Assembly (NCBI RefSeq): GCF_001889165.1
Contig: NZ_CP016020.1
Span: forward strand, 1,152,501 to 1,216,500
Reading direction: 5' to 3'
Source: Bacillus weihaiensis
Lineage (GTDB): Bacteria; Bacillota; Bacilli; Bacillales; Bacillaceae
DNA length: 64,000 nucleotides
Made by a program: the position numbers and the translations under genes. The notes beneath the pieces were generated by a model. The model was not told the DNA's origin. It worked only from the letters and a program-made list of their open reading frames with translations, and did not search any database. Every line of letters starts with the position of its first letter. The stretch's first letter is position 1. Shown here one piece after another: positions 5,942-41,945 of the stretch.

Positions 5942-5981
5942 ATAAGTGATATAAAATTAAATGAGCCAAAACATACGTAGA

Positions 5982-6217
5982 ATGGGAAGAGTATAGTGCG
6001 ATCGCTTTTAGAGAGAGAAATCAGTTGCTGAAAGATTTCTTAAGTATGAAGCAGTAGAATGTCGCCCAGGAGTAGTTTCTTTGAATAAGAGTAGAAGAAA
6101 CCGGTAAAAACCGTTATTTTGTTGAGTGTATAGGCTAAGTCTATTTTTTAGTCTATAAAAAAAGGTGGTACCACGAAACTATTCTCCTTTCGTCCTTTTA
6201 CGGGCGGGAGGAGTTTT
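5982..6217 (+). promoter_or_regulatory. T-box leader of valS (valine specifier GUC)
   Basis: The conserved T-box core AAAGGTGGTACCACG is at 6161-6175. It is followed by an intrinsic terminator at 6183-6217 (CTCCTTTCGTCC pairing with GGGCGGGAGGAG, then a T run). The candidate specifier is GTC at 6061-6063, in the context GAAT-GTC-GCCC typical of the specifier loop, which fits a valyl-tRNA synthetase gene. Uncharged tRNA-Val is expected to stabilise the antiterminator and allow valS transcription. The exact 5' edge of stem I is approximate. Confidence 0.9.
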
Positions 6218-30354: not shown

Positions 30355-33300
30355 ATGGAAGATTTATCAGCTCTCAAAATTCGTGATTTTCCCGAAGATG
30401 AAAGACCACGTGAACGCCTAGTAAAAGAAGGACCGGACAAACTTTCAAATCAAGAATTATTGGCAATTTTACTCCGAACGGGAACAAAAAAAGAATCAGT
30501 CCTAGATCTTTCCCAACGTTTATTAAAGCACTTTGAGGGCTTGCGAATGCTTAAGGATGCATCTGTAGAGGAGATTACGACCATCTCTGGAATTGGGGTT
30601 GCCAAGGCTGTTCAAATACTTGCTGCCTTAGAGCTGGGGAGAAGAATGAATCGTCTTACTTATGATGACCGCTATGTGATTCGCTCACCTCAGGATGGAG
30701 CGAATTATGTAATGGAAGAAATGCGATTTCTCAGTCAGGAGCATTTTGTTTGTTTATATTTAAATACTAAAAACCAAGTCATTCATAAACAAACAGTCTT
30801 TATCGGGAGTTTAAATGCCTCGATAGTACATCCTAGGGAGGTTTACAAGGAAGCTCTCAAACGTTCGGCAGCATCTTTAATATGCATTCATAACCATCCT
30901 TCTGGAGTGCGCCTGTAAGGTGTCTAATTTTAGCGATTTCTTTGAAATCTAGAACTCCTTACAAGGTTCTATGGTCAGCATCTTACCTTGAGGGGAAACC
31001 TATAAAGGGAACAGAGCATGATGTGAAAAGGAGAAGAGACGACTAAGCTATCTATGTTGATTCAGTTCTTCAGACTAATGTGATGTATGGTAAAAGCTAT
31101 ACTGCTTGAATCCTAGACGAATGAGCGATGGGTGCGCCATTGTCTACGATAGCTAACAGGCAATGAGGACAAAATGGGAGATACATCTTTAACTGTATCT
31201 GTTGGGTATCGCCAGAGCCCTGTCCATCGTAAGGTTTGTCCTTCAATCCTCAACTAGAGGAAACCGTCGAAAGGGATACCTAACCGTCACGCATCTAAAA
31301 TTATGACATAATTCAGGGATTACCTAAGTGCAAGTGCCAAATGGCTATTAGATAGAGGTCTATGAAAATTGCATATGGTAACGGAGTCTCCATAGTACCC
31401 AATCGTTTGCTTGTAATGAGTTTAGCAGGGGGAAGGGAGACAGGTTGATTGTAACGTCTATGAGAAAGGAGTCATGAATATGGCAAAATATCCATTTCAA
31501 CAGTTGGACGTTATATGGAAAGCTTCTCAAAGAGGAAACATGATCACAGATTGTTACCGTCTGATGTATAACAAAGAGCTATGGATGAAAGCATATGGAG
31601 AATTGTATCCAAATGGAGGAAGCTTACCAAAAGGAGCATCTGATGAAACAATAGATGGTTTTGGTTTACAGATAATAGATGACATAATTGAGCAACTAAA
31701 AGCCGGAACCTTCCGTTTTACGCCTGTAGAAAGGGATTATATTCGAAATTCAAGTGGGGAAAAGAGACCTTTAGAAGTTCCTAATGTTAAAGATCAGCTC
31801 GTACAGGAAGTTATGAGAATGATTATAGACCATATATATGAACCAGTATTTTCAGCTAATTCTCATGGAACTAGGGAAGGAAGAAGCTGTCACACTGCTC
31901 TATCTCAAGTGAAAAATACATGGCAAGGTTTAACATGGTGTATTAAAGGAGATATGAAAGGCTACTCTGACCAAATTGACCATTCTGTCCTCCTTAATTT
32001 TATCTCCAAGAAAATTAAGGATCGTCGCTTTTTACTACTCATTCATCATGCACTAACATGTGGTGTAATGGGGAATAGGACATATCACAAAACATACTGT
32101 GGCACACTACAGAGAGGGATTATCTCACCTTTACTTGCTAATATCTACCTTCATCAATTCGATATGTATATGGAAAACCTAATGGATAAATTCGGTAAAG
32201 GTAGAGTGAGAAGTGAACATTCCGTCAATTGGGAAGATCGCAATGAATTAGCTCTAAGCATCGAACAACTTAAAACGAAGCAGATTGAAGCATCTTTATT
32301 TAATCCTGCAGATAAAAATGGTCAAAGAATGAAATATGTCCGTTATGATGATGGTTTTGTTATAGGGATTGCAGGCTCTAAACAAAGTGCATTATATATA
32401 AAAGAAAGAATCACAGCTTTTCTTTTAAAGGAACTTCATCTTACTTTAAGGGAAGAAAATACACTCATCACACATATGGACCATCCTATTTCCTTTCTTG
32501 GTTACGAGTTTCGAAAACGGAATGAGATAAAGGCGAAAAGGCTCACGGATAAAAACCAAAAGCACGCATTGAAAAAACGAACGCTATCAGGTGCAATTAA
32601 GTTGGAAATTCCTACAAAGAAAATGAAAGAATTTGCATTAAAGAATGGATATGGTCACTTAGATGATTTCACCATTGTGCATCGATCAAAGCTTATGAAC
32701 AATTCGGAATTGGACATTCTCTCTACCTATAATGCTGAACTAAAAGAAATTGCAAATTACTACAAGCTAGCTAATAATTATCATCATCTTGATAGGTTAT
32801 TTTATTTAGCGGAAAGTAGCTTCATTAAAACCATAGCTAATAAACGTAGAAGCACCTCAAAGAAAGTAGCCACAAGCATGAGAACATCTAAACAAGGGGT
32901 ATTATGTTTGGTTAGTAGGGATACTAAAGGCAAAGAAAAACTTTATCCATTCATTAAACTAAAAGATTTGCCCAAAACATAGAGGTCCCATACAATACTC
33001 AGGTAGGATTAAGTATGAAACAGAGTATATTACTACTAAATGTCAAGCATGCGGTACAGAAGGTCAGATGGAAGGTTATCTCGTTTGTTAAGTTAATAGC
33101 CATGCAAGAGGCCCCTAACATACTTGGACAAGGTTTGCCGTAAAACAGATTAACACTTGCCCTATGTTATAAGTGCCATCACGTCCTCGATGAGAAGTGA
33201 ATTTCCGATTTAGTCAACTGGCGAGCCGTATACGCTGAAAGGTGTACGTACGGTTCTGAGGGGGGAATGGTGAAACCTACTTTGAAAACAAAGGAAGGCG

Positions 33301-33458
33301 CATGACTCCTACCCTACGATCCATCACCGAGCAGAGAAGATATCGAAGTCACGAAACGTTTAGTTGAATGTGGGAAGATGTTAGGAATAGAACTTTTGGA
33401 CCATCTTATCATAGGAGAACAAAAATATGTAAGTTTGAAAGAAAAAGGCTACGTGTAA
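30355..33458 (+). CDS. radC: DNA repair-associated JAMM protein RadC, interrupted by a group II intron
   Basis: Exon 1 is 30355-30906 (184 codons) and exon 2 is 33318-33455 plus stop at 33458 (46 codons). Removing 30907-33317 joins PSG to [11 protein letters not shown] in frame and gives a 230-residue protein aligning throughout with B. subtilis RadC (231). The intron falls inside the JAMM metal motif (HNHPSG | D...). Unspliced, translation ends after VRL at 30918, losing the catalytic aspartate. The start is ATG at 30355 after GGAGGAG. RadC has an N-terminal helix-hairpin-helix-like region and a JAMM domain; its exact biochemical role is unsettled. The gene is functional only if the intron splices. 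Confidence 0.95.
31474..32982 (+). CDS. group II intron reverse transcriptase/maturase, likely degenerate
   Basis: A 502-residue intron-encoded protein. RT blocks are recognisable ([69 protein letters not shown]) and a maturase (X) domain follows ([23 protein letters not shown]). Key positions depart from consensus: the YADD catalytic box is Y291-D-D-G294, PQGG is LQRG (212-215), and FRP is TRE. The frame stops at 32982 within what should continue into an HNH endonuclease domain. AAAGGAG precedes the ATG. Reverse transcription is probably lost; maturase activity may remain. Confidence 0.9.
   Translation: MNMAKYPFQQLDVIWKASQRGNMITDCYRLMYNKELWMKAYGELYPNGGSLPKGASDETIDGFGLQIIDDIIEQLKAGTFRFTPVERDYIRNSSGEKRPLEVPNVKDQLVQEVMRMIIDHIYEPVFSANSHGTREGRSCHTALSQVKNTWQGLTWCIKGDMKGYSDQIDHSVLLNFISKKIKDRRFLLLIHHALTCGVMGNRTYHKTYCGTLQRGIISPLLANIYLHQFDMYMENLMDKFGKGRVRSEHSVNWEDRNELALSIEQLKTKQIEASLFNPADKNGQRMKYVRYDDGFVIGIAGSKQSALYIKERITAFLLKELHLTLREENTLITHMDHPISFLGYEFRKRNEIKAKRLTDKNQKHALKKRTLSGAIKLEIPTKKMKEFALKNGYGHLDDFTIVHRSKLMNNSELDILSTYNAELKEIANYYKLANNYHHLDRLFYLAESSFIKTIANKRRSTSKKVATSMRTSKQGVLCLVSRDTKGKEKLYPFIKLKDLPKT
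32983..33200 (+). pseudogene. frameshifted remnant of the intron-encoded HNH endonuclease domain
   Basis: In the frame +1 to the maturase, 32986 onward reads [31 protein letters not shown], ending at a TAA near 33099. In another shift [13 protein letters not shown], a stop, then [14 protein letters not shown] follow to 33200. CxxC, then CxxCHH with intervening histidines is the layout of the C-terminal HNH domain of group II intron proteins. At least one frameshift near the AAAA run at 32974-32979, a second one near 33100, and an in-frame stop break it. A single-base sequencing error could explain the first lesion but not all. Confidence 0.8.
33223..33256 (+). ncRNA. group II intron domain V (catalytic hairpin)
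   Basis: The 34-base element begins GAGCCGTATAC, has a central GAAA tetraloop and ends GTACGGTTC. This is the standard bacterial domain V, with the AGC catalytic triad at its 5' end. It is followed by domain VI and the intron end 61 bases later. Base pairing looks complete. Confidence 0.93.
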
Positions 33459-41851: not shown

Positions 41852-41945
41852 CTGTAGCGCACCCGTGCTACAACCGCTCGGAGTAAGGTTATTAAGTGAT
41901 GTTCTTACATACACCTAGTTCTGGCGAGTCTGAGTTTATAGGAGG
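41852..41945 (+). promoter_or_regulatory. L21 leader RNA element
   Basis: The stretch from CTGTAGCGCACCCGTGCTAC through TTCTGGCGAG to the ribosome site AGGAGGTG matches the ribosomal protein L21 leader found upstream of rplU in many Firmicutes. GTAGCGC...GTGCTAC forms the first hairpin. L21 autoregulation through it is expected. Confidence 0.78.

Follow-up and report, generated by a model that had tools for sequence, protein, structure and literature searches.

A degenerate group II intron in radC of Bacillus weihaiensis and a graded series of radC introns in the Bacillales

The interrupted radC gene and its intron

A 64,000-nucleotide stretch of Bacillus weihaiensis DNA (NZ_CP016020.1, assembly GCF_001889165.1, positions 1,152,501–1,216,500; hereafter the window) contains a radC gene which is split by a group II intron (Table 1). 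Exon 1 ends with the HNHPSG codons (CATAACCATCCTTCTGGA) and exon 2 opens with GATCCATCACCG (DPSP), its first codon specifying the aspartate of DPSPSRED. The intron starts with GTGCGCC and finishes with CCTACCCTAC, and thus has the GUGYG 5' and AY 3' ends of group II introns; Rfam also detects the catalytic domain V. An earlier note on this DNA had placed the intron exactly between these two sets of codons and had stated that its removal restores a 230-residue RadC. The boundaries were confirmed, and joining of nucleotides 30906 and 33318 gives a frame which reads through 184 + 46 residues from the ATG at 30355 to SLKEKGYV, with HNHPSGDPSPSR as the peptide stretch at the junction. A second intact radC, the presence of which the note had regarded as damaging to its proposal, was looked for and none was found in the 4.36-Mb, 99.99%-complete assembly. 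The sole other PF04002 match covers profile positions 2–72 only. This short paralogue (L002:1414–1716) is a 100-amino-acid (aa) open reading frame (ORF), counted from the first ATG, which stops at VGHI, before the HNHPSG position; rescue by a second full-length copy is therefore ruled out.

The nearest solved protein to the intron-encoded protein (IEP) is LtrA of Ll.LtrB (5g2x; 1.2e-95, the runner-up scoring 2.3e-30). The catalytic residues of an active reverse transcriptase (RT), the motif A aspartate and YADD, are not all present in the window: the motif A aspartate is retained, motif C has changed, and motif B reads LQRG vs PQGG in intact relatives. The NCBIfam group II RT/maturase model scores 223.7, under its cut-off of 300. 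RVT_1 (Pfam) still gives 60 bits, so that the window protein is not MatK-like in the sense of an RT domain lost and a domain X kept. It possesses no endonuclease (En) motif in frame. Five full-length relatives with an intron at the same position retain the HNH endonuclease, although in G111 its HH is replaced by HD.

The maturase domain X has fared differently from the RT part. All eight invariant columns of a 20-protein IEP alignment fall within it (window residues 404–455). When the RT part was compared with that of the intact relatives G284 and G159, the proportions of nonsynonymous and synonymous differences (pN and pS) were 0.17–0.18 and 0.52–0.54, and the ratio of the corresponding rates (dN/dS) was 0.20–0.23, above the 0.06–0.16 found, where finite, among pairs of the seven least-decayed IEPs. 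For domain X the window ratio against the same two relatives was 0.05–0.10, within the least-decayed range of 0.01–0.11, so that the RT part is relaxed in the window IEP and domain X is not. G428, which has lost the motif A aspartate, was grouped with the intact introns in this comparison, as well as in the exon-pairing and tree-label tests below, and the contrasts are slightly blurred as a result. The decayed RT motifs and endonuclease had been overlooked by the earlier note. With the former broken and the latter frameshifted, the window intron is probably no longer mobile, and is probably a splicing-only relic rather than an active retroelement.

Table 1. Features of the split radC gene and its intron (window coordinates)
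Feature	Position	Strand	Details
radC exon 1	30355..30906	+	184 codons; UPF0758_N and start of RadC JAB domain; Pfam PF20582, PF04002
Intron-binding site 1 (IBS1; TCTGGA)	30901..30906	+	last six bases of exon 1; hexamer covaries with EBS1 region across 19 introns
Group II intron	30907..33317	+	2411 nt, GTGCGCC...CCCTAC; same junction in 17/397 genomes of the order
Domain I stretch	30916..31400	+	conserved fold, 125 predicted pairs, 16-row alignment; starts at intron base 10
Candidate exon-binding site 1 (EBS1; GCCAGA), tentative	31211..31216	+	read from alignment; pairs with 30901–30906 at 5/6
IEP	31474..32982	+	502 aa; degenerate RT and maturase domain X; preceded by GAAAGGAG
RT motif C	32344..32355	+	YDDG in window; YADD in intact relatives
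Maturase domain X (Pfam Intron_maturas2)	32686..32871	+	39.6 bits, cut-off 20.8
HNH endonuclease remnants, frameshifted	32990..33182	+	tblastn pieces at intron 2084–2179 and 2238–2276, out of frame with the IEP
Domains V and VI with 3' splice site (ACCCTAC)	33221..33317	+	Rfam RF00029, 64.9 bits, cut-off 40
radC exon 2	33318..33458	+	46 codons plus stop; DPSPSRED...

Related introns in the Bacillales

The junction, here called site 2, was searched for as the HNHP[ST]G codons followed by GTGYG. Within the order, 17 of 397 genomes (in 16 of 136 genera) matched this pattern, as did two of 80 in the family and two of 21 in the genus; none of the 228 genomes of the class outside the order (sample of 250) did. 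Since the reversed control pattern had no match in the 397 genomes, the junction is not a product of chance. A second insertion site in radC, site 1, lies 63 nt upstream, after HPREV, and its pattern matched 10 of the 397. Both sites are occupied in Mesobacillus subterraneus MITOT1, the sole relative returned by the scan of a named collection. RadC itself was found in every one of 150 genomes from the order. The note had called a conserved gene dependent on splicing unusual. The intron does split the catalytic motif of a conserved gene, and the comparative evidence given below speaks for dependence on splicing; the claim was overstated in view of the recurrence of introns at this junction and of the RadC intron known in Oceanobacillus iheyensis, and PMC3788773 quotes RadC as non-essential in two species, B. 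subtilis and S. pneumoniae.

Thirty-one radC introns in 26 genomes could be delimited, of which 19 occupy site 2 and 12 occupy site 1. Every one of them begins with GTGCGYC, and 27 end with ACCCTAC. Outside the 31 counted, a genome of the window's own genus (G017, L047) carries an extra site-1 intron whose IEP, of 603 aa, is full-length, and group II intron-like inserts were seen elsewhere in radC, near HNH (L093, G343), after LDH (L091, G448) and at KEKG (L077, G317). Rfam group-II-D1D4-5 matches lie near the first two of these; the third runs into a contig end. A second, uninterrupted RadC match occurred in eight of the 19 intron-bearing genomes searched (four of them with a frame of 147–185 aa) and in none of the other 11. 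These second copies look like mobile-element paralogues.

The introns at site 2 form a graded series. The RT triad is intact in six of the 19 (five of 625–629 aa with endonuclease, one of 537 aa without); it is broken, the frame remaining open, in 11 (582, 507, 502, 450, 440, 433, 412, 399, 348, 283 and 262 aa); and two introns, of 1067 and 877 nt, are ORF-less. Site 1 presents six full introns, two without endonuclease, two with a broken triad and two without an ORF (516 and 734 nt). Eight shortened IEPs were analyzed against Pfam. Intron_maturas2 scored above its cut-off together with RVT_1 in G151 and alone in G137, G345 and G274, so that the MatK-like condition of a lost RT domain and a kept domain X is found in these three relatives. 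Neither domain was detected at E 0.1 in G199, G451, G182 and G304, where a profile built from the IEP family recovered matches to the X region. If this series runs from intact to reduced, as its members suggest, the window copy would stand at an early stage of decay.

Several full-length introns of different families have ribozymes 5–6% apart in hosts whose RadCs differ by at least 20%, which makes horizontal spread more likely. The distances between introns and those between RadCs gave a Mantel r of 0.60 at site 1 (119 of 2000 permutations as high) and 0.26 at site 2 (196 of 2000); G137, represented in the comparison by a RadC of only 78 residues, is for that reason nearest neighbour to many rows. 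Vertical inheritance of the radC intron was rejected on the weak correlation at site 2 and on the closely similar introns in hosts with distant RadCs. The distances agree with retrohoming into a conserved target and subsequent decay in place. Divergence is greater among the more decayed introns, and the window and Mesobacillus copies are not among the divergent ones. A tree of the introns requires four changes of the intact or decayed label (three to five under bootstrap), a number as low in 32 of 500 shuffles; most of its forks are weak, and the starred branches force only one change.

Loss of RT is not confined to radC. Eight LtrA-like introns were taken as a control outside radC, of which one (G017) proved to be a radC site-1 intron. 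Among the remaining seven the triad is broken in three (pcrA, addA and recA), from which this conclusion is drawn, and intact in four (addA, recA, near spoIVA and a gene of a 246-kb contig), so that an intron may lie in a repair gene and yet keep its RT. These gene names are presumptive, being given by resemblance. The introns in pcrA of G009 (L117) and in addA of G214 (L119) and G017 (L046) follow the GDxxQSI motif (GDSDQSI or GDVKQSI), and two of the three encoded proteins have a broken triad, with YADQ in G009 and YADS in G214. The pcrA of G009 appears to contain a second intron of another class. The recA of G274 (L118, C2:45500–55500, minus strand) is interrupted by three group II introns of 809, 878 and 2716 nt, the exon ends having been placed by the RecA frame. 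The largest specifies a degenerate IEP (YKER), the other two look too short for one, and joining of the exons yields a RecA of 350 aa. This 2.5-Mb genome also has two reduced radC introns.

The radC gene is a target of other elements as well. In G137 (L107/L108) and G200 (L109/L110) it is split by elements of ca. 43 kb in which a tyrosine integrase lies next to the left exon; 20-base repeats shared by the exon pieces (AATGCCTCGATTGTTCACCC; AACGCATCGATCGTCCATCC) encode NASIVHP, and in G137 this element is additional to the site-2 intron. Further interruptions measure ca. 20 kb, with two weak integrase matches (L111/L112, G153), and ca. 18 kb (G109), and in G141 (L098, L101) the same sequence interrupts both RadC copies within about seven bases after HNHPSG. 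The interruptions in G153, G109 and G141 resemble Tn554-like insertions; Tn554-like transposons are reported to favour one radC site (PMC3788773). The neighbours of radC in the window are presumably maf on one side and mreB/mreC on the other, named by resemblance. Rfam also revealed two ordinary features there, a T-box leader (5969–6200, 144.2 bits) and a ribosomal protein L21 leader (41862–41941, 56.2 bits).

Splicing and the source of the maturase

Domains V and VI were seen in 19 of 19 site-2 introns and in all ten site-1 introns scanned (of 12). An adenosine at -7, the putative branch point, is present in 18 of the 19 at site 2. In domain I, kept double changes were found at 50 of the 125 predicted pairs in 16 introns. 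Compared with the intact G284, the window copy has 107 pairs unchanged, two double changes, nine single changes and two broken pairs, with 13.0 broken expected at random, and nine decayed introns compared with the same relative have 0–7 broken pairs each, with 5.6–35.6 expected under random placement of the same substitutions; these figures are flattered, as the structure was derived from the same 16-row alignment and the most divergent introns (G274, G182 and G304) were left out.

The pairing of EBS1 with the exon was investigated by a region-wide permutation test, which superseded an ambiguous column-by-column scan of the alignment. Across the 19 introns the EBS1 region paired with 110 of 114 of the last six bases of its own exon, against a mean of 99.2 for permuted exons, and 0 of 5000 permutations were as high. 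The twelve decayed introns alone gave 70 of 72, ten of them being perfect; in the seven least-decayed no preference for the own exon was detected (1263 of 5000 permutations as high). A folded domain I with exon-binding sites is thus found across the introns. In the downstream exon of radC, pN was 0.15 at a pS of 0.79 in 11 hosts of decayed introns and 0.16 at 0.80 in six others, pS being near saturation and G137 and G317 having been left out; by this measure the exon is under purifying selection. The conserved exon 2, the compensated domain I pairs, the EBS1–IBS1 covariation and the retention of domains V and VI indicate that radC introns are still spliced, and the expression of radC in the window very likely depends on it.

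With a probability of about 0.78, we read these data as an LtrA-like retroelement in radC which has lost its mobility and has kept its ribozyme and domain X for the splicing of radC. A mobile LtrA-like group II retroelement would have retrohomed into the conserved JAMM-coding stretch of the gene and would then have become immobile as its RT motifs changed and its HNH endonuclease was frameshifted. The ribozyme and domain X would have been retained, we propose, because expression of radC needs the intron to be spliced out. RadC would accordingly be made from spliced RNA only, with the cis-encoded, RT-dead IEP probably serving as the maturase. The position and frame of the intron, its broken motifs, the constraint on domain X, the ribozyme pairs and exon 2 are read directly from the DNA; that the intron splices in vivo, that its protein acts as a maturase, that mobility has been lost and that decay runs in this direction would follow from them.

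The relatives bear on where the maturase comes from. Of the 19 genomes searched, four (G304, G199, G451 and G345) gave no group II IEP match beyond the RT-less radC protein; their assemblies are 93–99% complete and may therefore lack others. The AlphaFold model of the 262-aa G304 protein (mean pLDDT 64.3) is of high confidence only at residues ca. 160–250, corresponding to domain X, and among PDB structures Foldseek placed LtrA of the Ll.LtrB complex first (prob 1.00, E 0.031). It is unlikely that the intron instead splices with a maturase supplied in trans by other group II elements, or with none, the cis-encoded IEP being a pseudogene. The window genome (G000) has another group II intron, with an IEP frame of 602 aa, in three copies of equal score (L009, L010, L011); two radC introns at each site are ORF-less; in G214, where both radC introns are ORF-less, a single LtrA-like protein with a broken triad is encoded elsewhere; and ORF-less bacterial introns are rare and nearly always occur with related IEPs which possibly act in trans (PMC4424553). 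Against this, the three other IEPs were matched, in the search made, over the RT part only, the 502-codon frame of the window has remained open with a constrained domain X, and no other IEP was found in the four relatives.

Still less probable is that radC is dispensable and that the intron no longer splices, intron and exons decaying together. The quoted non-essentiality of RadC, the degenerate window IEP and the interruption of radC by other mobile elements in relatives would be consistent with such a course, which is contradicted by a downstream exon in frame and constrained in the 11 decayed-intron hosts, by the compensated ribozyme pairs and by an EBS1 region which follows synonymous changes in the exon. 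That splicing of the intron is a host regulatory switch, dependent for example on temperature or growth, is very improbable: persistence in a conserved gene favours it indirectly, and the absence of the junction pattern from 19 of 21 genomes of the genus argues against a general role. Continued mobility can be practically discounted, for although the motif A aspartate and the first of motif C are present and might suffice, and over half of bacterial IEPs have no endonuclease (PMC4424553), motif B and the endonuclease are broken in the window as well, and an IEP with YAGD had a mobility of only 2.5e-5 % at 37 C (PMC2882425).

To the limits given above for domain I, for exon 2 and for the completeness of the assemblies must be added several findings which weigh against a spliced, maturase-encoding relic. 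The best EBS1–IBS1 pairing in the window copy is only 5/6, and an alternative hexamer, GTTGGG, ties with GCCAGA. The three other IEPs of the genome, ca. 30% identical to the radC IEP over residues 28–240, could act in trans. Domain X is relaxed in more decayed relatives, with dN/dS, where finite, of 0.36 (G199) and 0.21 (G451), and the intron of G199 also has no canonical 3' end. In G182 the X piece is out of frame and apart from the 283-aa frame, a counter-example to its upkeep. No Foldseek match of the G304 model reached E 0.001. In G137, which has a site-2 intron, a prophage lies between the upstream radC exon and the rest of the gene, 43 kb away, and radC has thus not been kept intact in every host.

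Comparison with known systems

We lean towards a broader view, held with less assurance, in which introns of the Bacillales would take a course like that of organellar introns. Retroelements would enter conserved repair genes (radC at two sites, recA, addA and pcrA), would repeatedly lose RT and endonuclease, and would end as RT-free maturases of ca. 260–440 aa or as ORF-less introns, both kept only by the gene's need for splicing. Some of these mini-maturases would be the sole group II protein of their genome, and all stages would coexist at one site in living, partly culturable bacteria. How a mobile intron becomes one that only splices matters for the question of how organellar and spliceosomal introns arose. 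Here a single gene position provides a ladder of intact retroelement, RT-dead maturase, RT-free protein and ORF-less ribozyme, the relatives concerned being perhaps near enough to one another for swaps.

The Ll.LtrB intron of Lactococcus lactis and its protein LtrA (5g2x, 8h2h) provide the closest solved sequence to the window IEP and the top fold match of the G304 protein. It differs in that LtrA has an active RT and an HNH endonuclease, and in that the intron does not lie in a housekeeping gene. Among the introns of Thermosynechococcus elongatus, which are of a different lineage and in which En is kept, one IEP serves many ORF-less introns in trans. The TeI4h intron of the same organism resembles the present one in that motif C of its IEP is altered (YAGD, the protein of very low mobility cited above) and in that it lies in an essential gene and is taken to splice (PMC2882425). 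Another group II intron in a Bacillales DNA repair gene, recA of Geobacillus kaustophilus, was reported to be active (Chee and Takami 2005, as cited in PMC3522654); the gene differs from radC.

The chloroplast trnK intron of plants and its MatK protein are similar in being an immobile intron in a conserved gene, with RT motifs lost and domain X kept (PMC4424553). They differ in that the host here is a bacterium and the window IEP is still RT-like; an independent origin is presumed. Decay alone is not news, since a 2022 survey gives ca. 30% non-canonical IEPs in its tree set (PMC8919778). The IEPs of that survey were detected by the RT domain, and as seven of the eight shortened IEPs described here have no Pfam RT domain at E 0.1, surveys of this kind could miss them.

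The closest likeness is to O.i.I2 of Oceanobacillus iheyensis, an ML-class intron whose exons encode RadC and whose IEP has no YADD and yet is free of stops, from which a maturase function was proposed; in a 2015 review it is named the sole known bacterial intron with a degenerate IEP (PMC4424553). Compared by description only, the window intron is another member of this kind, its exons encoding RadC and its 502-aa IEP being open and without YADD. A degenerate-IEP RadC intron was thus already known, and the window copy by itself is of modest interest because of this precedent. What appears to be new is the graded series of states at one site, where, beside a single described case, 13 of 19 introns are without an RT triad or an ORF and several encode proteins without a Pfam RT domain. 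It is this ladder, including RT-free proteins which are the sole group II proteins found in their genomes, that deserves attention.

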